From positions 1-49,032 of the IMG/VR virus record IMGVR_UViG_3300042523_001189: a stretch of DNA of 49,032 nt. One strand, written 5' to 3'. Below, one piece after another: positions 3,184 through 48,102 of the stretch; positions within the stretch are counted from its first letter, which is position 1, and each line of letters starts with the position of its first letter. The DNA is from a virus. Position numbers and translations under genes: made by a program. Under the pieces are notes generated by a model that made no database searches, was not told where the DNA came from, and saw nothing but the letters and a program-made list of their open reading frames with translations.

Positions 3184-3712
3184 TAAAGGTGATCAGATTC
3201 ATTGTTTTTTAACTTCATATACGCATCCGAAGATCTTTCTTCCGGTAAAAGCTATTATTAAAGAAACTCAATGGGATACTGTAAATCCTAAGTATCTTAT
3301 TAAAGTTTTAAAATTTTACGATTCATATCTTTTTCTGAGAAATACTCTTTTTGAAATGAATTTTTCTAATTCTTTTGAAAAGAGAGCTCAACCTCTACCT
3401 ATAAAAAAGGAAGACTATAAAAGAAACAAAGAGTTGGAAACTCAGATGTCATCTGAAGATCCGCGTTTTTATATAGTAGTAGATTCTATATTGGCGGTAA
3501 AGACTTATAATGATCTATCAGATCTTTTTAACAATTTACAATTTTTTCTAATATCAAGAGAGCTTTCTGAATTAAAAGAACTAATGACTAGAACCGTTTA
3601 TCGAGGTTCTTTTAAAATTGATACTGAAAGAGAATTTTCTATTAGACTCAAGAATGCGTTTGGAGACAAGTCCAAAGATTTAGATATTGATAAATTTTTA
3701 GATTCCCTTTAA
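3161..3712 (+). CDS. Hypothetical protein, 183 aa
   Basis: Not recognised. I choose ATG 3161 (MKKHRIFNKGDQIHC...), which overlaps the preceding gene by 23 nt. The frame is open further upstream only from a TTG at 3059 that would overlap the earlier gene by 125 nt. The first 60 residues look like a small beta-barrel-type fold (FNKGDQIHCFL, FLPVKAIIKETQW, YLIKVLKFY). The C-terminal half is helical and charged. It ends 4 bases into the convergent cupin gene, so the two share their 3' ends. Confidence 0.65.
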   Translation: MKKHRIFNKGDQIHCFLTSYTHPKIFLPVKAIIKETQWDTVNPKYLIKVLKFYDSYLFLRNTLFEMNFSNSFEKRAQPLPIKKEDYKRNKELETQMSSEDPRFYIVVDSILAVKTYNDLSDLFNNLQFFLISRELSELKELMTRTVYRGSFKIDTEREFSIRLKNAFGDKSKDLDIDKFLDSL

Positions 3713-4107
3713 GGTTTTTCCTTTTGAACTAATCCATCAGGATGTTCAGCCGGTGTATAGATTACATATAACTTTAGATCTTCATCTCCATCATTAATGA
3801 TGTTATGCTCTGTGCCAGCTGGTATTACTACTGCGTCATTAGTTTTAAATTCAAACTCTTTTCCGTTTAAAACTGCTTTACCAGAACCTGCTTCAACTCT
3901 TAAGAATTGATCTCCTTTTTTATGAACTTCGCTACCTATTTCAGTACCTGGTTTGATGCTCATTAAAACAAGTTGGCTATAAGGCCCTGTAAAAAGAACC
4001 TTTCTATAGTTTTCGTTTTCAACTGTAGCTGTGTCTATATTTTCAAGCCAATAATCTTCGCTTGATTTTTTTTCTTCATTTAGAAATTCTTCGAATCTTT
4101 TGAGCAT
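3709..4107 (-). CDS. Cupin-domain protein with a capsid-targeting-like N-terminus
   Basis: This is the only minus-strand gene in the window. Residues about 40-115 form a cupin barrel: motif 1 is recognisable in PGTEIGSEVHKKGDQFLRVEAGSG, and motif 2 in NDAVVIPAGTEHNIIN. It resembles small single-domain cupins of the mannose-6-phosphate isomerase-like type; the His and Glu/Gln residues (H62, Q67, H107) could hold a metal. The substrate cannot be told. The first 11 residues (MLKRFEEFLNE) match the pattern of T4-type capsid-targeting sequences with an L-x-E cleavage site, so the protein may be packaged. It has its own promoter-like box at 4117-4130. A packaged sugar- or metal-binding protein is an inference; it could also be an ordinary cytoplasmic cupin. 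Confidence 0.88.
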   Translation of the reverse strand: MLKRFEEFLNEEKKSSEDYWLENIDTATVENENYRKVLFTGPYSQLVLMSIKPGTEIGSEVHKKGDQFLRVEAGSGKAVLNGKEFEFKTNDAVVIPAGTEHNIINDGDEDLKLYVIYTPAEHPDGLVQKEKP

Positions 4108-4116
4108 TTTAACTTC

Positions 4117-4130
4117 TTTTTTTATATATT
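4117..4130 (-). promoter_or_regulatory. Late promoter-like box for the cupin gene
   Basis: Read on the minus strand, the sequence is AATATATAAAAAAA, ending 9 nt before the cupin ATG. It differs from the plus-strand consensus GATATATAAAAAAA only at the first base. Its presence in the same position before the sole minus-strand gene is good evidence that the box is a real signal and not compositional noise. Confidence 0.65.
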
Positions 4131-37334: not shown

Positions 37335-37344
37335 TATATAAAAC
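37333..37344 (+). promoter_or_regulatory. Late-box variant AATATATAAAAC
   Basis: AATATATAAAAC overlaps the stop codon of the preceding gene (37332-37334) and ends 13 nt before the ATG at 37358. The 16-mer AATATATAAAACAAAT is identical to that at 45310-45325. Confidence 0.5.
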
Positions 37345-37357
37345 AAATCAATCTCTT

Positions 37358-37714
37358 ATGAGAACATTTAGCGAATACATCAACGAATCTAACGAAAAAG
37401 AATTTAAACTTTTCGAATCTTCGATACATGAAGAACTTACTCCTGAACAAGAAGCAAAGATTAACGAAGCTCTTGAGAAATTTATGGAGAAATATGAAGA
37501 AGGATATACTTTAGAAGAGCTTTCAGAAGAAATGACTAACGAAGGAATCATCGGTTCTATTCTCGGTGGTTTAACTGGATTTGCTCTAGGTAGCACGGTT
37601 GGAAAAATGATAGCTAAAATTTTAGGAGTTGAAAAAGGTATTTTTTACGACATGTTAACCAGTAGACTTGTAGGAGCAGCTCTTGGAGCTTCTTTGGGCA
37701 AGCGAATTATATGA
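37358..37714 (+). CDS. Glycine-zipper protein with a capsid-targeting-like N-terminus, 118 aa
   Basis: The N-terminus MRTFSEYINE fits the T4 capsid-targeting pattern (MKTYQEFIAE) with an I-x-E cut site. An acidic helical middle follows (about 20-65), then two Gly-rich hydrophobic stretches with GxxxG-type spacing: GGLTGFALGSTVGKMIAKI (about 69-87) and LVGAALGASLGKRII (about 104-118). Such glycine zippers insert in or pack against membranes. A packaged protein that acts on the host membrane after DNA entry is possible; an inner capsid protein is as likely. It has its own late-box variant although it precedes replication genes. Its stop overlaps the RuvC-like start by 4 nt. Confidence 0.75.
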   Translation: MRTFSEYINESNEKEFKLFESSIHEELTPEQEAKINEALEKFMEKYEEGYTLEELSEEMTNEGIIGSILGGLTGFALGSTVGKMIAKILGVEKGIFYDMLTSRLVGAALGASLGKRII

Positions 37715-38334
37715 GATACGTAGGTATAGATTTTTCAATTAATAGTCCAGCAATCTGCATTTTAGAAAAAGATGCATATCACTTTGTAGGATTTTACAAC
37801 GAAGAGGGAAAAAAGTTCGAAAAGAAAGACCCCTCTGATTATTCATATCACAGAAAGCTTCTTTCTCTCAAAGATGTAGATATCATACATTTCAGCAGAA
37901 GAAAAAAGAATGAAAATTATTCTGTCGATCAAAGACAAAAAATCGAAGACAGTCACACTTTAGGGAAGCTAATAGCTGAGAATATTGGTTCCGAAAAAAA
38001 TAAAGTAGGAATCGAAGGTTATAGCTATGGTTCGAAGGGAAATAGTTTTATAGATCTTATCTCTTTCAATTCTGTAATGAGACATGTATTGTACACGGAT
38101 ACGGATTCAGAGATTTTTGTTAGAACACCTAGTCAAGTTAAAGGATTAGCTGGAAAAGGAAATGCAAATAAGTCAATGATGTACGAATACTTTTGTCAGA
38201 ATACAACGAAGGATCCGAATCTAGAAAAGTCTTCTTTTTGGAAATGGTGTATTGAACAGAAGTTCGTCGGAGAGATTCCGAAACCTATAGATGATCTGAT
38301 AGACTCTTATTTTATCTCTAGATCTGTTCAGTAG
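37711..38334 (+). CDS. RuvC-like nuclease (candidate Holliday junction resolvase)
   Basis: This 207-aa protein has the RNase H-like RuvC layout. Strand 1 carries an acidic residue in MRYVGIDFSINSPAIC (Asp7), the middle strand in VGIEGYSYG (Glu102), and the C-terminal helix in PIDDLIDSYFI (Asp194, Asp195, Asp198). GKGNANKSMMYEYF (about 148-161) is the Lys/Gly/Asn segment typical of phage RuvC-like enzymes. It would resolve branched DNA from recombination-dependent replication; T4 uses endonuclease VII (gp49) for this, so the RuvC type may be a replacement. It overlaps the previous gene by 4 nt. Confidence 0.8.
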   Translation: MRYVGIDFSINSPAICILEKDAYHFVGFYNEEGKKFEKKDPSDYSYHRKLLSLKDVDIIHFSRRKKNENYSVDQRQKIEDSHTLGKLIAENIGSEKNKVGIEGYSYGSKGNSFIDLISFNSVMRHVLYTDTDSEIFVRTPSQVKGLAGKGNANKSMMYEYFCQNTTKDPNLEKSSFWKWCIEQKFVGEIPKPIDDLIDSYFISRSVQ

Positions 38335-38348
38335 AGCTCTGTAGCTCT
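38333..38348 (+). terminator. Possible weak terminator/hairpin after the RuvC-like gene
   Basis: AGAGCT and AGCTCT (38333-38338, 38343-38348) form a 6-bp stem with a CTGT loop overlapping the stop codon. There is no clear T run after it, so it may just be an mRNA end-stabilising hairpin. Confidence 0.3.
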
Positions 38349-38605
38349 TAGAGTCTTTCCTTCCCAAAACTTCAGATAAATTTTATAGTATGCGATCTGA
38401 GAAAGTTTACTGATCTCGTAAAAAAAATTTATTCCCAGAAAAAATAAACTTTTCATCGTTTCCGGATATATATTATGTAAGGTTTTTTTAAGGGCAACTT
38501 TTATTTTTTATGGCAATTCGCGGCAAGTCTAAAATTTTTTAGGAGCTTTTTTAAACTTCTTACGGCAAATCTTTATTAATTAAACAACAAAAAAGGCAAA
38601 TTAAA
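38335..38605 (+). promoter_or_regulatory. Leader of gene 32 with GGCAA repeats and a hairpin
   Basis: This 271-nt gap is the longest non-coding stretch. It holds a GATATATATTATG sequence at 38465-38477 that may be a promoter. Within 120 nt there are six GGCAA copies (38493, 38512, 38522, 38564, 38595, 38608), the last inside the first codons. AAGTCTAAAA (38525-38534) can pair with TTTTAAACTT (38549-38558), one mismatch, around a 14-nt loop containing AGGAG. T4 gp32 represses its own mRNA by binding a leader that contains a pseudoknot and an unstructured AU-rich tract; this leader could serve the same purpose. That is inference. Confidence 0.45.
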
Positions 38606-39526
38606 ATGGCAAATGAATTCGACATTTTCAATCTAGGGGTCAATGACATTGACACCTACACAAGAGAAGCTTCCGGCGGAAGTGATCTCTTCAAACCCAC
38701 AGCAGATCAAGGTAAAGACGGAGTCTACAAAGCATTAGTTAGATTCGTACCTAATCCAAAGAATCCCCAAAAATCAATTATTAGAAAATTTGTTTATTGG
38801 CTGGAAGATGGTGCAGGTAACGGAGGTTACTATGATTCACCTTCTACAGTAGGAGAAAAATGTCCTGTACAGGATCTTTTCTTTAAACTGAGAAATTCTG
38901 AATCGGCAGTAGACAAAAAGATGTCTGAAAAACTGAAAAGAAGAGAAATTTTCTATTCTTTAATTCAGATTATCAAAGACTCAAACAGTCCTGATCAAGA
39001 GGGTTCTATTAAAATTTTCAAGTACGGTTACAAAATTAAAGAAAAAATTGATGCCGAGTTGAATCCAGAGTTTGATGAACCTACACAGGTTTTTGATTTA
39101 TTCGAAGGTAAAAACTTTGAAATGATCATCACCAAACAAGCTGGTTACAACAACTACGACTCATCAAAATTTCAAGGAAAAAGAACTCCAATTTTGGTAA
39201 ACGGAAAAGCAGTTGAAAAAGATGCAGAAGGTAGAAAGCAAATTTTAGAATATCTAAATTCTTCTCCTTCTCTAGATTCTTTTGACTACAAACCTTGGGA
39301 TGATGCAACTCGATCTAAAATTGAAGATATTTTGAATCAATATAGATCTCCAGGTTCAGCAATATCCACGGTCTCTTCCAAGAAGAGCCAAACTTCTGAA
39401 TCCGCATCATTTGATAGTTTTGGTTTTGATGAACCTAAAGCTTCGGCACCTGCAACTTCAACTTCATCGGCATCTGAAGAAGATTCGGATGATCTAGATG
39501 AATTCTTGAAGGGTCTTGACATCTAA
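38606..39526 (+). CDS. 32: Single-stranded DNA-binding protein gp32
   Basis: At 306 aa it has the length and layout of T4 gp32 (301): N-terminal arm, central OB-fold (KALVRFVPNPKNPQKSIIRK, FVYWLEDGAG at about 42-70; IKIFKYGYKIKEKI; FDLFEGKNFEMIITKQAGYN), Ser-rich linker (about 245-285) and acidic C-terminal tail (EEDSDDLDEFLKGLDI). It coats ssDNA and its acidic tail recruits replication partners. In T4 a zinc ion is held by three Cys and one His; here only Cys86 (GEKCPVQDLF) is seen, so zinc binding seems lost. It is followed 2 nt later by primase. Confidence 0.92.
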   Translation: MANEFDIFNLGVNDIDTYTREASGGSDLFKPTADQGKDGVYKALVRFVPNPKNPQKSIIRKFVYWLEDGAGNGGYYDSPSTVGEKCPVQDLFFKLRNSESAVDKKMSEKLKRREIFYSLIQIIKDSNSPDQEGSIKIFKYGYKIKEKIDAELNPEFDEPTQVFDLFEGKNFEMIITKQAGYNNYDSSKFQGKRTPILVNGKAVEKDAEGRKQILEYLNSSPSLDSFDYKPWDDATRSKIEDILNQYRSPGSAISTVSSKKSQTSESASFDSFGFDEPKASAPATSTSSASEEDSDDLDEFLKGLDI

Positions 39527-39528
39527 AA

Positions 39529-40602
39529 ATGCCAACAAAATTGTCTACAGACAAAATAAGTCGGGAAGAGATAACTCTGAAGATTGAGCAGGTCTTAGAC
39601 AGATGTCACGGCAATTTAGAAAAAAGAAGAGCAAGAGAATCTCACAGCAGGCTTAATTTTGCTTGTCCATATTGCGGAGATTCTTCTTCAGACATGAGAA
39701 AGAAGAGGGGCAACCTATACTGGGAGTCCCTCTCTTTCCATTGTTTTAATTGTAATAAACATCGAGATCTAGATGCATTTTTACGTGATTTTGATAATGG
39801 CTTCGAAGGAGAAAAAAGGCTAAGCTTAGTAAATTTCTTGAGAGAAAGAGCTACTTACAACATACCTAAAACTCTAGACTTTTATCTTTTTCAGAAAATA
39901 GAAGAGCTCGCAATTACCAAAGCAGAATTATTTTCTGCTCTCAATGTTTATCCGATAAATTCAAATACAAAACGAGCATATCCATATCTACAAAGCAGAC
40001 TGTTAACTCATCGCCTTGAAAATTTTGGATATGATCCAAAGAGAAGAACTCTATATGTATTTAATTTTAATTCTGATAAAACTAAGATCATAGGTTATCA
40101 GACTCGTTATTTAGAAGATTCTGCTTCCAAATATTTGAGTTATAATCTTTTTAGAATGAGAGAAAAATTGAATCAACCTGAAGTAGAAATAAATGATACT
40201 GATAAAGATTCAATAAATAGAATATCAATGCTGTTTGGTATTCTGCAAATAGATCTTTCTCGAATCTTCACCATCTTCGAAGGCCCCATAGATGCAATGT
40301 TTATGAAAAATTCTTTGGCTTTAACTGGAGTAAGCAAAAGCACATTTAACTTTGATGAACTTGATTCTGTAAGGTACATGTTAGATAATGATTATGAAGG
40401 AAAGAGAAAAATGGTTGAAAAACTAAAACTTGGAAAAAAGGTTTTTATGTGGAGAAAGTTTATTGAAGAAAATAGACTCTCTAGACATAAAATTAAGGAC
40501 TTAAACGATTTAGTTAAAGTTGCATATAAAGAAAAAAGAGATGTTTTGAGAGAAATCAATCTTTATTTTACAGATAACTCAAAAGATCTAATATATGTAT
40601 GA
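39529..40602 (+). CDS. DNA primase (zinc ribbon plus TOPRIM)
   Basis: The zinc ribbon is at Cys46-x-x-Cys49 (ACPYCGD) and Cys72-x-x-Cys75 (HCFNCNK). The TOPRIM domain shows Glu251 in IFEGPIDAMFM with Asp255, and the DxD motif YMLDNDYEGKR (Asp286, Asp288), followed by KIKDLNDLVK. It would make RNA primers at the fork with the replicative helicase, which is not in this window. The arrangement is like gp61/DnaG-type phage primases. It is 2 nt after gp32 and overlaps the next small gene by 8 nt. Confidence 0.88.
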   Translation: MPTKLSTDKISREEITLKIEQVLDRCHGNLEKRRARESHSRLNFACPYCGDSSSDMRKKRGNLYWESLSFHCFNCNKHRDLDAFLRDFDNGFEGEKRLSLVNFLRERATYNIPKTLDFYLFQKIEELAITKAELFSALNVYPINSNTKRAYPYLQSRLLTHRLENFGYDPKRRTLYVFNFNSDKTKIIGYQTRYLEDSASKYLSYNLFRMREKLNQPEVEINDTDKDSINRISMLFGILQIDLSRIFTIFEGPIDAMFMKNSLALTGVSKSTFNFDELDSVRYMLDNDYEGKRKMVEKLKLGKKVFMWRKFIEENRLSRHKIKDLNDLVKVAYKEKRDVLREINLYFTDNSKDLIYV

Positions 40603-40807
40603 CAAGGTAATGGAAGATCTCGATAAATTTTTCGATGAAAAAAATAATAGAGATAAAAAATTGAAATTTTTTGTTGAAATCGAGACTTCTGATGTTAATA
40701 TAGAAGAACACCCCTTTATCTTTCCAGAACCAATCCAAAAGAAAAAAACTATAGTCAGGGTTGCGACTAAAAGAAAGGGTAAAGATAGCAAAGATAATCT
40801 ATTCTAA
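40595..40807 (+). CDS. Small hypothetical protein, 70 aa
   Basis: Not recognised. An acidic N-terminal part (MEDLDKFFDEKNN), a short beta-like centre (KLKFFVEIETSDV) and a basic C-terminal tail (KKKTIVRVATKRKGK). It overlaps primase by 8 nt and the UvsY-like start by 1 nt, so it is part of the replication operon. Confidence 0.6.
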   Translation: MYDKVMEDLDKFFDEKNNRDKKLKFFVEIETSDVNIEEHPFIFPEPIQKKKTIVRVATKRKGKDSKDNLF

Positions 40808-41247
40808 TGAATCGTGAAGAACTAGAAGCAAAAACTCTTGAATTAGAAGAAACTCTAATCCGCGACAGAGATAAATGGAGCAATAAGATTAGAGAACTTA
40901 TTGCTATGATGAAGAATGTAAATGACATTCCAGAAGCACAAGTATATATGCTTTCTTATCGTCAAATGCTACTTGATTCTATTTCTTCTTTTCAAACAAG
41001 CTTATACAAAAAGAATGTTAGCTTTGATACTTACTATAAAAAGAAATTTAGAGAATACACTCTAGATTACGACATAAAATTGAACGGAGGTGAAAAGGAA
41101 AAGATGATTAGAGCCGATTTAACCCTCGTTCAAAGACAAATACATCTTCTGGAATCTCATATTGATTATTACAGGGAGTGCATCAGAACTCTAGATAATA
41201 TGGGGTTTGCTATTAGAAATAGAATAAGAGTTGCAGAAGAGTTTTAA
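40807..41247 (+). CDS. uvsY: UvsY-like recombination mediator
   Basis: This 146-aa helical protein has the length of T4 UvsY (137) and similar C-terminal order: a basic/Tyr-rich part (YYKKKFREYTLDYDIKLN), a helix IRADLTLVQRQIHLLESHID, and LDNMGFAIRNRI (about 129-140), close to T4 SRGFAIKH in the same place. UvsY displaces gp32 from ssDNA and loads the recombinase UvsX. Lying between primase/gp32 and UvsW, it completes a recombination cassette. Identity is low; the call rests on the C-terminal motif, size and position. Confidence 0.72.
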   Translation: MNREELEAKTLELEETLIRDRDKWSNKIRELIAMMKNVNDIPEAQVYMLSYRQMLLDSISSFQTSLYKKNVSFDTYYKKKFREYTLDYDIKLNGGEKEKMIRADLTLVQRQIHLLESHIDYYRECIRTLDNMGFAIRNRIRVAEEF

Positions 41248-41261
41248 AAAAATAAAGAAAA

Positions 41262-42770
41262 ATGGATTTAAGACTTTCTGATGATAAGAGATTTTTAATC
41301 ATTGAAAGTTGTACTGAAATGGAGTACGAACAGCTAAAGCTGTCTCTGACTAAAAAGATCGATGGCTGGAGATTTCACCCTCTAGTTAAAAAGAAATTAT
41401 GGGACGGAAATATCAGTTTCATAAAAGGAAATAAAATTCCGGCAGGTCTCTGGAAAGAGGTACTCGACATTGGCCAAGAATATAGTTTCGTGGTTAATAT
41501 GAAAGGTACAACTATACTTTTTGATTCTGAAATCAAAGAAGAAGAATTTATTGCATGGGCAACTGAATTCTTCAAAAAACATCCTAAATACAAACCGAGG
41601 GACTATCAAATTCAAGCAGCTTATAGAATTTTAAGATATAGAAGATGTCTTGCAGAGCTCGCAACATCAGCCGGAAAGACTCTTATATCTTTTATGGTAA
41701 TTGCGTATTTGTTAGAAGTTTTAAAGAAAAAGAGAATACTCTTTATTGTTCCTAACGTATCTCTGGTTCTTCAAGCAACCGAAGATTTTGATGAATATAA
41801 TTTAAAAGAGAGAGTACCTCTCAAAATTCAGCAAATTTACGCAGGTGCAAAAATTAAAGCAAGTTCTAATATTGTAGTTGGAACATATCAATCTCTGGTC
41901 AAAAAGCCTGCAGATTATTATGAGAGCTTTGATGTAGTTATGATCGATGAAACTCACAAAGCAAAATCAAATTCAATAAGATCGATTCTTGATCAGTGCT
42001 GGCACTGTGATTATAGATTTGGTCTTTCTGGAACAATTCCTAAAAGAGGAACTGTAGACAGATTAACCCTGATGGCATGTACTGGGCCTCTTATCACAAA
42101 TGTAAGTGCTAATTATCTTCAGCAAGAAGGCCACGTTTCTCTTTGTAAAGTTCATATTTTTGAAATGGATTATGCTTCTAACGAACAAAAAGAAGCTTTC
42201 TATTTCTTGTCAAAAACTCCAGAAGACAGAAAAAAGCTTTTTTCCCTAGAACAGAATTTTATAGTAGGTTCTTTAAAAAGAAGAGAATTTATCACTAAAG
42301 TAATTGCTAGTTCGACGAACAATAGCTTGGTTTTATTCTATCGAATTGAACAAGGAGAAGCCTTGTATAATGAGCTAAGACAACTTCCAGACAAAGAAGT
42401 CTACTATGTAGACGGCGGAACTGATAAGGATATCAGAGAAGTTTATAAGAAGAAAATGGAAGGTGGAGATAATGTAATTCTAGTTGCCTCATTTGGAACC
42501 TTTTCAACCGGTATCTCTGTACAAAACATTCATAATATCTTCTTAACCGAATCTTTTAAATCTGAAGTAATTATCAGGCAGTCTATCGGTAGAGGTTTGA
42601 GAAAGCACAGCTCAAAATCAATGTTGAATATCATCGATTTTGTAGATGATTTTCGCTACAATGAAGGCGGCAAATATTGGACCAATTACTTATATAAACA
42701 TTCAGAAACTCGAATAGAGATCTACAAAGACCAGAAGTTTCCGTATGAAGTGAAAAAATTCAAATTCTAA
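41262..42770 (+). CDS. uvsW: UvsW-like DNA/RNA helicase (superfamily 2)
   Basis: At 502 aa it equals the size of T4 UvsW (503). An N-terminal ~110-aa domain (FLIIESCTEMEYEQLKLSLT) precedes the motor. Walker A is ATSAGKT (134-140), motif II is DETH (229-232), motif III is SGT (256-258) and motif VI is QSIGRGLRK (440-448). UvsW unwinds branched DNA and R-loops and helps switch from origin- to recombination-dependent replication. It is 14 nt after the UvsY-like gene. In T4 uvsW is a late gene; here it lies in the replication run with no late box in front. Confidence 0.93.
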   Translation: MDLRLSDDKRFLIIESCTEMEYEQLKLSLTKKIDGWRFHPLVKKKLWDGNISFIKGNKIPAGLWKEVLDIGQEYSFVVNMKGTTILFDSEIKEEEFIAWATEFFKKHPKYKPRDYQIQAAYRILRYRRCLAELATSAGKTLISFMVIAYLLEVLKKKRILFIVPNVSLVLQATEDFDEYNLKERVPLKIQQIYAGAKIKASSNIVVGTYQSLVKKPADYYESFDVVMIDETHKAKSNSIRSILDQCWHCDYRFGLSGTIPKRGTVDRLTLMACTGPLITNVSANYLQQEGHVSLCKVHIFEMDYASNEQKEAFYFLSKTPEDRKKLFSLEQNFIVGSLKRREFITKVIASSTNNSLVLFYRIEQGEALYNELRQLPDKEVYYVDGGTDKDIREVYKKKMEGGDNVILVASFGTFSTGISVQNIHNIFLTESFKSEVIIRQSIGRGLRKHSSKSMLNIIDFVDDFRYNEGGKYWTNYLYKHSETRIEIYKDQKFPYEVKKFKF

Positions 42771-42771
42771 A

Positions 42772-42786
42772 GATATATAAAAAAAA
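42772..42786 (+). promoter_or_regulatory. Late promoter-like box before the acidic repeat gene
   Basis: GATATATAAAAAAAA starts 1 nt after the uvsW stop and ends 12 nt before the ATG at 42799. TAAAGATA (42768-42775) can pair with TATTTTTA (42788-42795) with one G-U pair. Confidence 0.68.
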
Positions 42787-42798
42787 TTATTTTTAAGG

Positions 42799-43632
42799 AT
42801 GCAACCAATACAGAAATTTTCTGATTACTTCAAAGGTTATCAGACTACACAAGAAGCTATTCGCGAAGCAGATCTTCAAAAAGAATACGGTGAAGTTTTC
42901 ATGTCTCTTTTGAAAAAATATGGAGTTAGTAGTCCAGCAGAGCTAGACGAAGAAAAGAAGAAAGAATTTTTCGATGAAATCGGAGGTCTTTATAAAAAGG
43001 GAGAAGGTCAAACTGCTAAGGGCGAAGAATTAGTAGACACTGAAAAACCTGAGCCCGTTAAAGAAGAGGAAAATGAAGAAGAGGAAGAAGAAGACGAAGA
43101 AGGTGTGAAGATTCCTAAAAAGAAAGACGAAGAAACAGCTGCAGAAATAGAAGCAGAAATCGATGATATGGGTGAACCTAAAGATTCTGAAGATAAAGGA
43201 GATGAAGTTCCTAAAGACTCAGAAGAAGTCGAGGTAGAAGTTGAAGAAGAACCTGCAGCACCAGAAGCTGGAACTGAGGTTGATAAAGAAGAAGATAAAG
43301 AAACTGACAAAGATATTGAAGCTGAGATTGATGCAATGGGTGAACCTAAAGATTCTGAAGATAAAGGAGATGAAGTTCCCGCCGATGCTGAAGAAGTTGA
43401 AGTAGAAGTTGAAGAAGAACCTGCAGCACCAGAAGCTGGAACTGAGGTTGATAAAGAAGAAGATAAAGACACAGCAAAAGAAATCGAAGCTGATAAAGTT
43501 GAAATGGGTAAACCAAAGAAAGCTGTTATGAGTTTTGATGAATTTGTTTCTTCTAAGAATGAGTCTACTACCAAAGGAGAAGAATCCGAATTAGAGGATG
43601 AAGATTTGGATGATGTAGACGATCTTGGGTAA
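42799..43632 (+). CDS. Highly acidic repeat protein, candidate capsid-internal/core protein, 277 aa
   Basis: The first ~70 residues are a helical domain (MQPIQKFSDYFKGYQTTQEA, then EYGEVFMSLLKKYGVSSPAE). The rest is extremely acidic, built of a 56-residue repeat: IEAEIDDMGEPKDSEDKGDE at 117, IEAEIDAMGEPKDSEDKGDE at 173, and a diverged third copy from 229. The end reads MSFDEFVSSKNE followed by an acidic tail. Prohead core/scaffold proteins and internal proteins of T4-like phages are acidic or charged like this. The N-terminus fits the capsid-targeting pattern only loosely. Own late promoter-like box; it precedes another candidate packaged protein. Core protein is an inference. Confidence 0.68.
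   Translation: MQPIQKFSDYFKGYQTTQEAIREADLQKEYGEVFMSLLKKYGVSSPAELDEEKKKEFFDEIGGLYKKGEGQTAKGEELVDTEKPEPVKEEENEEEEEEDEEGVKIPKKKDEETAAEIEAEIDDMGEPKDSEDKGDEVPKDSEEVEVEVEEEPAAPEAGTEVDKEEDKETDKDIEAEIDAMGEPKDSEDKGDEVPADAEEVEVEVEEEPAAPEAGTEVDKEEDKDTAKEIEADKVEMGKPKKAVMSFDEFVSSKNESTTKGEESELEDEDLDDVDDLG
43147..43517 (+). repeat. 168-bp direct repeats in the acidic protein gene
   Basis: Two nearly identical 168-bp units (43147-43314 and 43315-43482) and the beginning of a third diverged one encode the 56-aa acidic repeat. For example GAACCTGCAGCACCAGAAGC occurs in both units exactly 168 bases apart. Recent duplication is likely. Confidence 0.88.
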
Positions 43633-43647
43633 TCACAAAAAAATGAA

Positions 43648-44778
43648 ATGAAGCACATTAAACTATTTGAAGAATTCTCGGCCACATTCGAGGCTCAAAC
43701 CAAGCTAACACCTGAGCAAGAGAAGTTCTTAAATAGGTCAGTAGGAGGAACTTGGTCTTTGAATCCTCAGACAGGACTTGTTGATGTAGATGGCTATGTC
43801 AACTGTTCTAATGAGGGTCTACAAGATCTTAAAGGCGTCAGATTCGGGAACGTAAGTGGGAGTTTCTCGTGCAGCTATAATAAGCTCACAAGTCTGGCAG
43901 GAGCACCACAGACCGTTGGTAAGGATTTCCATTGTGATATGAATAAGCTCACCTCACTGGTGGGAGCACCACAGGCTGTTGGGGGGATAAATGCCTTTAC
44001 TGTATCAGGCACTACGGGGAGTTTCTGGTGTATGAACAATCAGCTCACCTCACTGGTGGGAGCACCGCAGGCTGTTGGCGGGGATTTCCGTTGTCATAAC
44101 AATGTGCTCACCTCTCTAGAGGGAGCACCTCAGACCGTTAAATGGGGTTTCCTTTGTAGTAACAATCAGCTCACCTCTCTAGTGGGAGCACCAAAGACCG
44201 TTGGTAAGGAATTCGATTGTAGTAACAATCAGCTCACCTCACTGGTGGGAGCACCTCAGAAGGTTGGTGACGAATTCGATTGTAGAAATAATCCTCAACT
44301 TACCTCATTAGAAGGAGCGCCGAAAGCAAAGAGAATTGCTAGTGATATTAATAAAACCACGGTGGCTCCGCGGTCTTTTTCTATTGCCAGCGAATTCGAG
44401 GATTATGAAAATGGCAAAACTTATGATCTACAGGGTGAATGGGAAGATTTTAATTTTTCTGTTAAAGGAGACACCGTAATCTTTTCTGGTAAAGCTTATA
44501 TAGGTGATGTAAAAGGAAGTTATAGTGATAAAAGGGGTTTAGAAATGACCATGATGGTTGATATATTCACATTTGCAGATTGGTTTAAAGATAATCCTGT
44601 AAAGATCATATATAGAGTCAACAAAATCAAACCTGAAGATGTAATTGGTGATATTCATAACACCCTTGCCGCAATTAATGACTCTGGGACTGATTGGGAA
44701 TCAGTAAAAGATGTTAGTAAATTTCTTAGAGATAATGGATTAAAAACTACATCTAAAATATTAGAGCCTGAAGATTAA
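43648..44778 (+). CDS. Leucine-rich-repeat-like protein with a capsid-targeting-like N-terminus, 376 aa
   Basis: Start at ATG 43648; the ATG 5 nt upstream meets a stop at once. N-terminus MKHIKLFEEFSATFE has the F-E-E-F element of the other candidate packaged proteins. About residues 55-232 are 21-residue repeats of the type LTSLVGAPQTVGGDFRCSNNQ (LTSL at 43885, 43948, 44044, 44107, 44170, 44233, 44299), one unit enlarged to 32. These are LRR-like: Leu, Cys and Asn at fixed places, suited to protein binding. A separate ~140-aa C-terminal domain follows. The repeat part looks more GC-rich than its surroundings, suggesting transfer. Host-protein binding after injection is a guess. A strong terminator follows. 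Confidence 0.78.
   Translation: MKHIKLFEEFSATFEAQTKLTPEQEKFLNRSVGGTWSLNPQTGLVDVDGYVNCSNEGLQDLKGVRFGNVSGSFSCSYNKLTSLAGAPQTVGKDFHCDMNKLTSLVGAPQAVGGINAFTVSGTTGSFWCMNNQLTSLVGAPQAVGGDFRCHNNVLTSLEGAPQTVKWGFLCSNNQLTSLVGAPKTVGKEFDCSNNQLTSLVGAPQKVGDEFDCRNNPQLTSLEGAPKAKRIASDINKTTVAPRSFSIASEFEDYENGKTYDLQGEWEDFNFSVKGDTVIFSGKAYIGDVKGSYSDKRGLEMTMMVDIFTFADWFKDNPVKIIYRVNKIKPEDVIGDIHNTLAAINDSGTDWESVKDVSKFLRDNGLKTTSKILEPED
43885..44340 (+). repeat. 63-bp tandem repeats encoding LRR-like units
   Basis: Seven units start at 43885, 43948, 44044, 44107, 44170, 44233 and 44299; spacing is 63 bp except 96 and 66 bp steps. CTCACCTC and GGAGCACC stretches recur. They code for the LTSL-x-GAP repeats. Confidence 0.9.
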
Positions 44779-44796
44779 TCAAAATTGATTCTAGAT

Positions 44797-44828
44797 AAAA
44801 AAGAGGTCACCTATGGCCTCTTTTTTTT
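44797..44828 (+). terminator. Rho-independent terminator after the LRR-like gene
   Basis: AAAAAAGAGGTC (44797-44808) pairs with GGCCTCTTTTTT (44815-44826), with one G-U pair, around a 6-nt loop and running into a T8 tract. It closes the acidic/LRR-like unit. Confidence 0.9.
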
Positions 44829-44881
44829 GTTTACATAATTACTTATTATAATAAAAAAAGAATGCCCTAAAATGCACGAGA
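44829..44881 (+). promoter_or_regulatory. Probable promoter region of the glycosylase gene
   Basis: A very AT-rich 53-nt stretch between terminator and gene contains TTATTATAATAAAAAAAG (44843-44860). It has a TATAATA core with an A run but not the exact late box. As the preceding terminator is strong, a promoter must lie here; its class cannot be told. Confidence 0.4.
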
Positions 44882-45337
44882 ATGAATTCGATGATTTTAA
44901 TTGGTTCCCTGACCATCCCTTCAGTCAGCCCGCTAAACCTATTACAGGAACTATATCGGGAGAATCCCTGGAAGATGCTGGTATGTTGTCTATTTCTGAA
45001 TCAGACAACCAGAAAGCAAGTCGACAAGATCCGTGAAGAATTTTTCTTAAGATATCCGTCTCCTCAAGATCTATTAAAAACTGGAGATGAAGAAATTGAA
45101 GATCTGATCAAATCTCTAGGGTTTAAAAGAGTTAGAACACAAAGACTAAAGAGATTCTCTCTAGAATTTATTTCTAAAGAATGGAAAGAACCTATTGAGT
45201 TACATGGAATAGGGAAGTATGCCCAAGAATCTTGGGAAATATTTCAGAAGCTCAACTTCAATGTTCAACCTACAGATGGAGCTTTAATCGATTATTTGAA
45301 CTGGTTGGAAATATATAAAACAAATGGCAGGAATTAG
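44882..45337 (+). CDS. MBD4-like DNA glycosylase (HhH-GPD)
   Basis: This 151-aa protein follows the catalytic domain of vertebrate MBD4 closely: SPLNLLQELYRENPWKMLVC, CLFLNQTTRKQVD, then the helix-hairpin-helix EPIELHGIGKYAQESW (104-118) and the catalytic Asp132 in VQPTDGAL, followed by YLNWLE. No 4Fe-4S cysteine cluster is present, as in MBD4. Such enzymes remove thymine or uracil opposite guanine. In a phage the job could be repair of deaminated C or 5-methyl-C, or removal of uracil together with the dUTPase downstream. The start at 44882 keeps the conserved SPLNLLQE in frame. The stop overlaps the next gene by 14 nt. Confidence 0.85.
   Translation: MNSMILIGSLTIPSVSPLNLLQELYRENPWKMLVCCLFLNQTTRKQVDKIREEFFLRYPSPQDLLKTGDEEIEDLIKSLGFKRVRTQRLKRFSLEFISKEWKEPIELHGIGKYAQESWEIFQKLNFNVQPTDGALIDYLNWLEIYKTNGRN
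45310..45321 (+). promoter_or_regulatory. Late-box variant AATATATAAAAC inside the glycosylase end
   Basis: AATATATAAAAC lies in the last codons of the glycosylase and 2 nt before the next ATG (45324). The 16-mer AATATATAAAACAAAT is the same as at 37333. Very close to the ATG, so its role as a promoter is doubtful. Confidence 0.4.
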
Positions 45338-46475
45338 TACATTAGATTCTTTTTACAAAAAAGAGGGAAAAGAAAAACTAGATAATCTTCTCAAGAATTA
45401 TGTAGTGATAGTTGAGAAGTTTTCAGCTTGTAATTTTTACATTCAAAGATCGGGTGATCAGGTTTCTTTTTATAAGAAAGATGATCAAAACATGATAGGA
45501 CTAATAGATAGAACTTTTACGCAATTATACGAAAAGGCTATTTCCCATTTTTTGAAATTTGACTCTACGGACTTTCCAGAAAACTATAGATTTGGTTTTG
45601 AATATTTTCCAAATAATAAACCCGGAGAGATTGAATATATCAGTATTCCTGAAAATTCTTTAGTTCTAACGAGAATAATGATTAAAAATTCAGCAGGTAA
45701 AACTGTAAAAGTAATTGATGATGATAAAGTTCTAGAAAACTGGGCGAGCATTTTAGACGTTTCATACAACACTCCAATTTTTTCTGGTGAGCTTTCTGAT
45801 AAACAGAGAAATACTCTTGTAGAAATGGTGATTAATTCTTCAGACAATGTAAAACGTAAATTTCTTTCTCTTTTTGAATCATATGAAGCACCAGCTCAAA
45901 GTGACACTTTCGATTCATATATCTTTAAAATTGTTTCACCGGGATCTGTTAAAAAATATAAATTTGTAGATGTTTCTGTTCCTCTCACTGAAAAAACTTC
46001 ACAAGAAGCAAGACGAGGTTCTGTGGATTCCGTTTCAATTTTAATCTTAGATGTTTTAGATTTTATCGAAAGTGAAGGACTTCCTCAACTGTTATCGGGC
46101 TCAAATGACGAGGAAAAATACATTGATCTTATTTCCCAACTGTACAATAGGTACATGAGTAAATATGAGAGTGGAGTTGCTGGAATGACTTTTGATAAAA
46201 AGGACTTTGCAGATTCTCCAGAGTTTGATGTTAATTTAAACATGATTAAAAATCCAACAACTCTACGGTTTTTGGAAAAATCGGATACCAACAAGACTAT
46301 ATTTAAAATTCTTCTAAACTCATTTAGAAAGTATAGAGATACAGAAATGGCAAATGATGTCTTAACCCCACAGGTATTAAAAGACTTTAATCTTAGAGTT
46401 GATGAAATCAAATCTCTAAGCAAGAAAATCTCAAATGATATAAAGACCTTTTCTGAATTTGTAGGTGATATATAA
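45324..46475 (+). CDS. Divergent Rnl2-like ligase-fold protein, 383 aa
   Basis: The order of nucleotidyltransferase motifs of T4 RNA ligase 2 can be followed, with changes. Motif I is EKFSACNFYI (Lys32) against EKIHGTNFSL. Motif III region is RFGFEYFPNN (89-98) against VFGEFAG. Motif IIIa region is NSLVLTRIMI. Motif IV is DSYIFK (197-202) against EGYVLK. Motif V is VKKYKFVD (209-216) against IKCKNSKF. The lysine is kept, but the Gly of motif I is Ala and the Glu-Gly of motif IV is Asp-Ser. A helical C-terminal domain follows, as in Rnl2. It may be an altered or inactive ligase, or use another substrate. Neighbours are DNA repair genes. Confidence 0.6.
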   Translation: MAGISTLDSFYKKEGKEKLDNLLKNYVVIVEKFSACNFYIQRSGDQVSFYKKDDQNMIGLIDRTFTQLYEKAISHFLKFDSTDFPENYRFGFEYFPNNKPGEIEYISIPENSLVLTRIMIKNSAGKTVKVIDDDKVLENWASILDVSYNTPIFSGELSDKQRNTLVEMVINSSDNVKRKFLSLFESYEAPAQSDTFDSYIFKIVSPGSVKKYKFVDVSVPLTEKTSQEARRGSVDSVSILILDVLDFIESEGLPQLLSGSNDEEKYIDLISQLYNRYMSKYESGVAGMTFDKKDFADSPEFDVNLNMIKNPTTLRFLEKSDTNKTIFKILLNSFRKYRDTEMANDVLTPQVLKDFNLRVDEIKSLSKKISNDIKTFSEFVGDI

Positions 46476-46480
46476 AAAAA
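46467..46480 (+). promoter_or_regulatory. Late promoter-like box before the 536-aa gene
   Basis: GATATATAAAAAAA overlaps the stop of the preceding gene (46473-46475) and ends 11 nt before the ATG at 46492. TAGG (46462-46465) and CCTA (46482-46485) can pair around it. Confidence 0.68.
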
Positions 46481-46491
46481 TCCTATAAAAT

Positions 46492-48102
46492 ATGATAAGT
46501 AGTTTCGACGACTTTTTAGATGAAGGTAAAGTACAAGTTAAAAGACGGTATACTGAAAACTATCCGTCCAAACATGTTTATAGCGGAGCTAAAATCAGGA
46601 ATGCAGTTCTTTCTGCAATTAAAGACGGCGTTGTAACCGAAGAAGAATTTCAAAAGATTTTAGACGAAGCTGGAGCTTCTAGAATTTGGAAATACAAATA
46701 CAATCATCTTTTTGACGTCAACGAAGACGGCGTAAAACTTTCATCAAAAGGTCTTAAACTCTGTCCTGTTGAAAGAATTGAAGAAGCTGATAAGATTGAT
46801 GAAGTTTCAACTTCAATAGCTCAACAAAGACTAATGGGAATGGCCTATGCCTTGAAAACGGGCGAAATGGACCCTGAGGATGCTAGTGATGAAGTAAAAG
46901 ATTTAGCTAAAAACATGACAGTTAAACAGCTAAAAGATTTTGCATCTACCAAGCATAAAGGTCTTCCCTATAAAAAAGAAAATGAAAATCTTACATTACC
47001 AGATGTCCCCGGCATGGGAGCCGTTAAACTACCCGGAAACCCAGGAACATCTACACAGTTTGATAATCAAGAAACCGGATCTGGTGATATTCCTTACCCG
47101 ATACCAAACAAGAAAAAAATGAAAAAAATGAAACTAATTCCAGAATCTTTTGAAGAGTTTTCAGAATCTCTAATCAATGAAGCATTTGCATCTTCTATTT
47201 TACAAAATTTAACTGCAGGAAAGTCAGATCTTAACAAGAAATTTTTTGATGCATTGTCAAGAATGGGAATTGCTGCATCCGATATTGAAGATGATCAAAT
47301 AATTGAATTGAAAACCAGCGATGCCAAAAAATATACAAAGCAAAACCCCAATTCCATATTGATTTATTATTCTACTACAGAAAAGCCAAATCCGTTTGCT
47401 GGTAGTGGAGCATGGAGTAGTTCTAAAACTATCCCAGGTGATATGCCTTTAGCCGTTGTAAAAGATAAGATATACATGGGATTAAAATATGACAGATACT
47501 CTAGAGGAAGTAAACCAGAGTATTCTTTAGTTCAGAATCCAGGCGGCACTATAGGAATCGATAAAGCTGGAGGAACTTATGGTTCGGGATTAACGACATT
47601 AGATAAAATAGCAGCGGTGTCTGATATTGTGTATGTAATTGATCCTACTGTAATACCTTCTTCTTCTGCAAAAAGAGCAGAAAGAAAACAGTCTAGATCC
47701 GGAGCCACTGCATATGTTAGTGATAAAGATTTTAAAGCTCAAAATAAAGCAAGATACGATGTTATTCTAGCAGACAGAGCTTCTAAATTGCCACTAGATA
47801 AAGAAGTTGGTGAAGCTATCGATATTTTGGCTTCTCACATCAAAGATGCTATCTCTTCAGGAGCTAAAACTAGATATGGGGAAATCCTTATCGGTACAGA
47901 TCCAAAAGGAAGAGAAATTAAAATGAGTGATGCCAGTAGCATCATGAGAAATCTTTTAGATGATTTTGGAAGATATGTAGATTATACAAATAAATCTGCA
48001 GAAGAAGGTAGTAGCAGATACTATGAAGCAGAATCTAAGCAATATGCTAAATCAGTTTCGGATAGACTTCGAAAAATTAAGAATAAAGACTATGCTTGGT
48101 AA
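46492..48102 (+). CDS. Two-part protein with DUF3008-like motif and two capsid-targeting-like segments, 536 aa
   Basis: N-terminus MISSFDDFLDE fits the capsid-targeting pattern with an L-x-E site. Residues about 110-159 (QQRLMGMAYALKTGEMDPED, then NMTVKQLKDFASTKHKGLPY) match the 'A-S-T-K-H-K-G-L-P' phage motif of the DUF3008 type. After a Pro/Gly-rich linker (about 165-206), a second targeting-like segment starts at Met213: MKLIPESFEEFSESLINE, with a possible cut after Glu230, followed by a ~300-aa domain with no known motif. It looks like a fusion of two packaged proteins, or a gene with an internal start at 47119 or 47128. Own late promoter-like box; a strong terminator follows. Confidence 0.7.
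   Translation: MISSFDDFLDEGKVQVKRRYTENYPSKHVYSGAKIRNAVLSAIKDGVVTEEEFQKILDEAGASRIWKYKYNHLFDVNEDGVKLSSKGLKLCPVERIEEADKIDEVSTSIAQQRLMGMAYALKTGEMDPEDASDEVKDLAKNMTVKQLKDFASTKHKGLPYKKENENLTLPDVPGMGAVKLPGNPGTSTQFDNQETGSGDIPYPIPNKKKMKKMKLIPESFEEFSESLINEAFASSILQNLTAGKSDLNKKFFDALSRMGIAASDIEDDQIIELKTSDAKKYTKQNPNSILIYYSTTEKPNPFAGSGAWSSSKTIPGDMPLAVVKDKIYMGLKYDRYSRGSKPEYSLVQNPGGTIGIDKAGGTYGSGLTTLDKIAAVSDIVYVIDPTVIPSSSAKRAERKQSRSGATAYVSDKDFKAQNKARYDVILADRASKLPLDKEVGEAIDILASHIKDAISSGAKTRYGEILIGTDPKGREIKMSDASSIMRNLLDDFGRYVDYTNKSAEEGSSRYYEAESKQYAKSVSDRLRKIKNKDYAW

Follow-up and report, generated by a model that had tools for sequence, protein, structure and literature searches.

What do five proteins of otherwise unlike sequence, encoded on one 49,032-base stretch of viral DNA (IMG/VR record IMGVR_UViG_3300042523_001189, hereafter the window), gain from beginning with a similar short N-terminus? 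This shared start, here called the tag, is very probably a capsid-targeting sequence of the T4 type. The window is a fragment of a T4-like virus, having genes for gp32 (PF08804), a UvsW-type helicase and a RuvC-like protein, together with weaker UvsY-like and tail-tube-like matches in the Pfam search. An earlier sequence-only reading had singled out the five open reading frames (ORFs), all of which are present with the N-termini that it gave. The span to which it assigned them (37358-48102) holds four, but the cupin ORF (3709-4107, minus strand) falls outside it.

Features of the five tagged genes

The features are listed below by window position, with an arrow marking the predicted cut. The leucine-rich repeat (LRR) match of the fourth protein (LRR_4, E-value 2.5e-4) has 21.6 bits and does not reach the curated cut-off of 27, hence the label LRR-like.

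3709..4107, minus strand: cupin (PF07883, Pfam E-value 1.1e-16) with added tagged N-terminus MLKRFEEFLNE↓E; tag score 17.3 bits
4075..4107, minus strand: cupin leader, residues 1-11, predicted from the motif to be cut after Glu11
4121..4128, minus strand: late-type box TATATAAA preceding the cupin gene (box scan)
37335..37342, plus strand: late-type box of the glycine-zipper gene (box scan)
37358..37714, plus strand: tagged glycine-zipper protein; tag score 14.5 bits
37358..37432, plus strand: glycine-zipper leader MRTFSEYINE↓S, with a second possible site near Glu25 (alignment)
42774..42781, plus strand: late-type box of the acidic-protein gene (box scan)
42799..43632, plus strand: tagged acidic protein (ORF with relatives; no Pfam family over cut-off)
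42799..42867, plus strand: acidic-protein leader MQPIQKFSDYFKGYQTTQEAIRE↓AD, predicted cut after Glu23 (alignment)
43528..43566, plus strand: tag-like stretch MSFDEFVSSKNES near the C-terminus of the acidic protein (ORF and relatives)
43648..44778, plus strand: tagged LRR-like protein (relatives with tags or related leaders; Pfam LRR_4)
43648..43692, plus strand: LRR-like leader MKHIKLFEEFSATFE↓A (MKHIKLFEEF relatives)
46469..46476, plus strand: late-type box of the DUF3008-type gene (box scan)
46492..48102, plus strand: tagged DUF3008-type protein, possibly cut into two parts (PF11450, E-value 3.1e-9, at residues 107-162; alignment)
46492..46524, plus strand: DUF3008-type leader MISSFDDFLDE↓GK; tag score 10.9 bits (alignment)
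47143..47181, plus strand: internal tag-like stretch ESFEEFSESLINE↓A of the DUF3008-type protein, residues 218-230 (alignment)

Excess of tagged proteins

The tag pattern is [FY]-x-x-[FY]-[ILV]-x-E. A loose pattern was found in five of the 44 window proteins, with 0.85 predicted from internal positions, and shuffled N-termini gave a mean of 1.00 and a maximum of 6 (500 shuffles); alone, it is only suggestive of an excess in the window. Proteins counted are ORFs of at least 60 amino acids (aa), a limit which also holds for the matrix, box, scaffold and co-absence counts below.

A 9-residue matrix was trained on 39 loose-pattern N-termini of LR756500.1 and then applied elsewhere with a cut of 9 bits. 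This 462-kb uncultured phage is the closest record in the phage collection, its UvsW being 61.8% identical to that of the window. Three of the 44 window proteins reach the cut (cupin, glycine-zipper and DUF3008-type), where 0.18 are expected (P = 7e-4). LR756500.1 supplied the training set and its own count is a leave-one-out one, with 31 of 632 proteins at or above the cut (2.70 expected). A wider search for such N-termini, which the sequence-only reading had proposed, gave 2 to 31 tagged proteins per record in nine further records, all above expectation. Besides LR756500.1 these are G001 (6/168, 0.73 expected), G002 (2/51, 0.22), G003 (3/61, 0.50), G004 (2/62, 0.22), G005 (5/74, 0.47), G006 (5/108, 0.62), G007 (6/63, 0.37) and G009 (7/75, 0.36). 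The excess is weak in G002, G003 and G004 (P 0.01-0.02 at 9 bits) and borderline in G003 with cuts of 8 and 10 bits (P 0.05 and 0.06). G001 is a 160,937-base IMG/VR contig of the same virus as the window; the two have identical (100%) UvsW, cupin, LRR-like and DUF3008-type proteins, and the positions of all five tagged genes differ by the same 2,065 bases.

The LRR-like and acidic proteins fall under the 9-bit cut because their Glu is displaced, and were kept as tagged on the evidence of relatives. The start of the former, MKHIKLFEEF, was found in a degenerate-codon scan of IMG/VR at 52 sites in 48 stretches, one being this virus. In the acidic family MQPIQKF[ST]D[YF] with I-[RK]-E↓AD is kept in four of eight aligned proteins (window, G002, G003 and G004), the four more distant rows being without I[RK]E↓AD. 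A leader like that of the glycine-zipper protein is kept in four of its relatives (G003, G004, G005 and LR756500.1). Tagged proteins had been described as otherwise unrelated, and an alignment of 73 tagged or core proteins agrees with this, showing 6% mean column identity and diverse Pfam hits; the set is the authors' selection, and among its members are coiled-coil proteins of the head region and an AAA protein with weak tags.

Two-part leader and predicted cut site

As read from the aligned sequences, the leader is in two parts: an aromatic pair, [FY]-x-x-[FY], and then, directly or a few residues on, a predicted gp21-type site, [ILV]-x-E. The MKHIKLFEEF set, whose search pattern ends at residue 10, came to 31 unique ORFs once those under 40 aa (7 of 52) were dropped and near-copies merged. 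[ILV]-x-E stands exactly at residues 11-13 in 19 of these and ends by residue 20 in 23, while the control at 16 other offsets gave the exact site in 0-3 of 30-31 ORFs and 1-10 in the wider test. In four exceptions the site is moved by one to three residues (KIDEA, NLNEK, AIDEK and ELNEK). A cut after L/I-x-E had been proposed for the window proteins; such a site is present at the end of the leader in four of the five, but its position varies among relatives, which had been missed.

Other families also keep the predicted site. The DUF3008-type family has FDDF-LDE↓GK or FEDFVNESYNNLDE↓GK, with [LI]DE↓GK in all four aligned proteins, and in the glycine-zipper alignment the leader is accompanied by a second Glu-ended site. 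In three distinct LRR relatives a different leader, with FE↓S or FE↓N at its end, stands a short way ahead of the domain shared with the window protein; others carry MKHIKLFEQFISEE.

The five short starts were seen correctly in the earlier reading, but it missed the tag's likeness to a scaffold repeat, described below, and tag-like stretches deeper in two of the window proteins. Both stretches are possible extra protease sites: the one near the C-terminus of the acidic protein (43528-43566) corresponds to MDFDSFVK in G003 and G004, and the one within the DUF3008-type protein (47143-47181) has Glu218 and Glu230 invariant in four aligned proteins. No fold is claimed for the DUF3008-type protein, its AlphaFold model having a pLDDT of 58.2 and none of 179 PDB matches reaching an E-value of 0.001.

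Head genes of the virus and its relatives

The lack of a gp21-like prohead protease had been named as a finding that would refute a targeting role. PF03420 was not found in a profile search of the window, which does not imply its absence from the virus because the window is a 49-kb fragment, and the protease is present in G001. There it is a 606-aa ORF with the S77 domain at its N-terminus (PF03420, E-value 1.2e-14, 54.7 bits against a cut-off of 27). G001 also has a T4-type portal (PF07230, E-value 1.7e-76) and gp23 (PF07068, E-value 5.6e-32). Residues His71, Ser126/127 and Asp148 are invariant in 21 S77 protease sequences and may be the His-Ser-Asp triad of Peptidase_S77. A family search of 27 records, 22 from the tag search and five from the LRR search, found the protease in 14 (13 over cut-off) and the T4 portal in the same 14; neither gene was found in the other 13, which are probably fragments.

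Eight relatives, including two near-copies, have the tag on an ORF between portal and protease, examples of its start being MKIIKTFEEFTSSLQE (G011), MKYLRLFEQFLSEA (G031), MKLKTYTEFINEA (G014) and MKYVKSLYEFVNEE (G006). In the T4 record this interval is the place of genes 67 and 68. There is no ORF between the two genes in G001, G003 or LR756500.1. The major capsid protein (MCP) has the site LINE↓A, and in G001 and G003 also HQLNE↓N, which aligns near ALME64↓N of the MCP of Sphingomonas phage PAU. The tag excess in the window and the nine further records, with protease, portal and gp23 in the same virus, supports the capsid-targeting role first suggested for the five proteins.

Late-type box and gene order

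Four of the five genes had been credited with a late-box of their own. This held: TATATAAA lies at most 60 nucleotides upstream of four of the five tagged genes and of four of the 39 other window genes (Fisher p = 0.0024). In G001 it precedes 5/8 tagged and 18/160 other genes, and is also upstream of the portal and the protease-scaffold gene, while in G002 the counts are 3/3 and 7/48. The window holds 13 copies in total against 6.9 expected, a number reached in four of 100 shuffles. Four tagged genes had also been said to interrupt the replication genes. Gene 37358 is indeed upstream of the RuvC-like gene, and 42799 and 43648 are downstream of UvsW, but the gene preceding 46492 matches no family convincingly.

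Scaffold-like repeats fused to the protease

In the same ORF the protease domain is followed by a scaffold-like region built of 14-residue units in tandem (I-x-Y-S-E-Y-[IL]-A-E-N-L), which contain the motif of the tag. Among the 16 fusions read initially the number of motif copies ranges from 4 to 13 (shuffled mean 0.08-0.20), and in a wider scan 6-12 copies were found in 33 of 39 fusions and none in the remaining six. Some near-copies from different assemblies are held in these sets and three of the 39 ORFs are cut; the fusion ORFs of G033 and G035, and L209 (one of 40 loci), stand outside the counts. A set of 119 distinct units gives the consensus x-x-I-x-Y-[ST]-[NE]-Y-L-A-E-N-L-[DN], in which the aromatics, the hydrophobic residue and the Glu are fixed by the search pattern. 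The megaphage protease ORFs read were those of LR756501 (735 kb), with 15 motif copies, eleven of them at 14-residue spacing, and of LR745206, with 12 copies, most of them close to DKNIAYSEYIAENL.

The T4 sequence YQEFIAE differs from the scaffold sequence YSEYIAE at two of seven residues. In addition, the tag matrix, which had no scaffold sequence in its training, places six of its 36 best windows, among 99,465, in three scaffold ORFs holding less than 2% of the residues. This likeness suggests how cargo may be chosen.

The six fusions lacking the repeat (L212, L213, L214, L216, L217 and L219) are ORFs of about 800 aa, 30-35% identical, with one at 56% in its best segment; all six keep the 14-residue period, with Trp replacing the Tyr motif. 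Twelve records were compared, six with repeats and six without. Only 2 of 436 proteins are tagged in the repeat-less records, near the 2.4 expected, against 57 of 1331 in the repeat-bearing ones (p = 9e-6), or 26 of 699 when the training genome LR756500.1 is omitted (p = 2e-4). As G032 was originally found by the tag search, the comparison was also made without it and LR756500.1, giving 19 of 490 (p = 3e-4). G032 was counted over 149,500 of its 482,156 bases, and at least one of its seven hits (65708), like both hits in the repeat-less records, is unlike the usual leader. With a cut of 8 bits, 24 of 126 genes neighbouring the fusion are tagged in repeat-bearing records and 0 of 62 in repeat-less ones. 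Repeats and tags are absent together; the records share ancestry, so these p values overstate independence. In LR756501, 6 of 50 proteins are tagged (0.5 expected).

Proposed mechanism and points against it

In a capsid-targeting role the leader, probably helical, would dock its protein into the prohead core. Once the shell is complete the protease would cut after the Glu and remove the leader; the mature protein would stay in the head with the DNA and may enter the next host from there. More boldly, the leader may dock by imitating one 14-residue scaffold unit, in which case cargo and scaffold would share one packing and cutting code, and the fused protease would cut the tag off once it has joined the core. 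The full proposal, for which we put the chances at about even, is that in a T4-like clade extending up to LR756501 the tag copies a single scaffold repeat at the molecular level. Each unit would hold both a docking face and a protease site, any protein gaining one such N-terminal unit would be packaged and trimmed, tag and repeat would evolve together, and dozens of proteins would be loaded for delivery.

Several observations weigh against these proposals. Eight of the 31 MKHIKLFEEF proteins have no [ILV]-x-E by residue 20, and the LRR-like protein of the window itself carries T-F-E, departing from L/I-x-E. The box TATATAAA was not found upstream of the counted genes of G003 (61) or G004 (62). 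Two large tail proteins (G006:48414 and G001:28232) hold five of the 36 best matrix windows in 3% of the residues; each of them has just two full motifs, without periodicity. The largest tag set, that of LR756500.1, goes with only four strict repeats, and T4 gp22 has one loose match and no repeats. In 50-kb pieces, LR745206 (2/58 tagged, 0.7 expected) and LR756504 (1/54, 0.6 expected) both have tags near the chance level, although LR745206 has a near-perfect repeat array. A structural model of the scaffold, with long helices predicted at 254-402, was too weak to use (pLDDT 52.2).

Alternative explanations

The rival that survives best, although we think it unlikely, is that the motif is a protease recognition site only. 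The proteins would then reach the core by another route, the aromatic pair would help gp21 to bind, and a single enzyme would explain the likeness of scaffold and cargo. The 19 of 31 leaders ending in [ILV]-x-E fit this, as do the counted scaffold repeats, where the site is present by construction of the pattern, and the gp23 cut site of T4, AFGSFLTE↓A, shows an aromatic pair in the same register as the tag. Yet L-x-E sites within the first 60 MCP residues of G001, G003 and LR756500.1 (LINE↓A, HQLNE↓N and others) show no such pair, and T4 genetics separates targeting residues from processing residues (PMC9026906).

That the tag is a nucleic-acid feature, such as a translation start or mRNA signal, or DNA copied at gene starts, with a peptide of no role, is very improbable. 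Tag codons in the tagged genes of LR756500.1 (L027-L036) do favour G-ending forms (AAG 38% against 10% in other genes, GAG 33% against 8%), as copying between leaders might leave, and such copying is perhaps their source. The same ten residues are, however, encoded by 25 distinct 30-mers in 31 unique genes, and 21 distinct 30-mers were found in 24 LR756500.1 genes; moreover, tag residues vary by class (F/Y, D/E, I/L/V) and the cut site moves among relatives. Equally improbable is a tag that directs proteins to some other site in the infected cell, such as a membrane or replication compartment: ORFs at the place of genes 67 and 68 carry it in eight relatives, it goes with scaffold repeats, and experiment has established its T4 counterpart as a head-targeting signal (PMC9026906). 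Chance likeness of short amphipathic starts, to which the loose-pattern shuffles reaching 6 in the window lend something, is contradicted by the independent matrix, both in the LR756500.1 leave-one-out count and in each further record, and is negligible.

Candidate cargo proteins

On the capsid-targeting reading, the clearest natural fusion is the cupin. Its alignment with four cellular relatives (53-61% identical) starts at residue 20; these proteins begin about 16 residues further on than the cupin does, and in three of the four the only possible ORF start is three residues before the alignment point; the window protein thus has the appearance of a cellular cupin with a leader. A scan of viral contigs found it only in the same virus and as a contig-end piece in a near relative, and a scan of the phage collection gave only five distant cupins. 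It looks like a late-acquired insert. The gene is the only minus-strand ORF taken as a gene in the window and has its own box.

Among the 73 tagged or core proteins there are seven with a match to LRR_4 and one each for ATP-grasp, GNAT, PNK3P and other families; of 20 tagged proteins scanned singly, 11 match no Pfam family. Other phages have a tagged cytidylyltransferase-like protein with a GRFMPVHNGH stretch (L143:3651-4232), a nucleotidyltransferase with an NMNAT-like start, and a tagged zeta-toxin-like kinase (L144:11621-12352). PADLOC matches of tagged proteins were weak, with one member each, and were not used. By analogy with T4 IPI, a known case (PMC3012670, PMC9958956), such proteins may act in early host takeover or counter-defence. 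Elsewhere in the window, positions 1-763 hold tandem repeats of the GGAGCACAAGG type, and ORF 32-763 resembles a shadow frame of a collagen-like Gly-x-Gln repeat.

Significance and comparison with known systems

The tag itself is known from T4, and PMC9026906 suggests that a capsid-targeting sequence may allow diverse proteins to be packaged by T4-like phages; what is new is the scale of the tag sets and the scaffold match. No description of such a match, or of tag sets of this size, was found in searches of an open-access library, subscription papers and preprints being outside the scope. According to a 2023 review, the mechanisms by which some proteins are localized to the T4 core 'remain mysterious', and the core structure is unresolved (PMC9958956). 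Visible scaffold repeats matching the tag make this question directly testable. The tag would also serve as a genome-readable label of likely packaged proteins, even in a record without annotation such as LR756500.1, and it yields candidate delivered proteins: LRR proteins, ATP-grasp enzymes, an acetyltransferase and a nucleotidyltransferase. If the proposal is true, a scaffold-copy tag lets phages load dozens of different proteins for delivery.

Like the T4 internal proteins (IPs), the proteins described here have a leader of about 10-20 residues with paired aromatics and a hydrophobic-x-Glu site on otherwise unrelated proteins. The start MKTYQEFIAE, which had been ascribed to T4 internal proteins in general, is that of IPII and IPIII (MKTYQEFIAEA) in the T4 record, but IPI starts with MKTFKEFTST (MKTFKEFTSTTTPVSTITEA). 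In the IPIII leader residues 4 and 7 mainly target, residues 8 and 10 govern processing, and gp21 cuts after L/I-x-E (PMC9026906). These positions correspond to the aromatic pair and the [ILV]-x-E of the window tag, so the T4 data match the motif; the aromatic spacing of the window leaders is that of T4 residues 4 and 7. T4 also has an S77 protease, which in the relatives adjoins tagged ORFs at the core-gene place. Unlike T4, with its three IPs, up to about thirty tagged proteins occur in one genome here, enzymes and LRR proteins included, and the protease ORF continues into a scaffold-like repeat region resembling the tag, whereas T4 gp22 has no such repeat.

A further comparison is with the internal capsid proteins gp142 and gp154 of the cultured phage PAU. 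As here, a common leader is found on small proteins encoded around the portal and protease, and in several of them it ends in LNE↓A or LNE↓S. In PAU (L173, record positions 90000-139999) 15 of 76 ORFs share the variant leader MKTLxxLYE, with 1.3 expected; some continue to LNEA, and two of the leader-bearing ORFs are annotated as 'internal capsid protein'. PAU differs in this leader and in having the protease gp151 and the annotated scaffold gp152, which itself has the leader, as separate genes. Its mature MCP comprises 520 of 585 residues by N-terminal sequencing (PMC5646251), a length one residue off a cut after Glu64. In SPN3US and phiKZ, too, the prohead protease removes N-terminal propeptides of packaged proteins, but SPN3US follows an A-x-E rule, S-x-E is mentioned for phiKZ, and several propeptides exceed 100 residues (PMC5694885).

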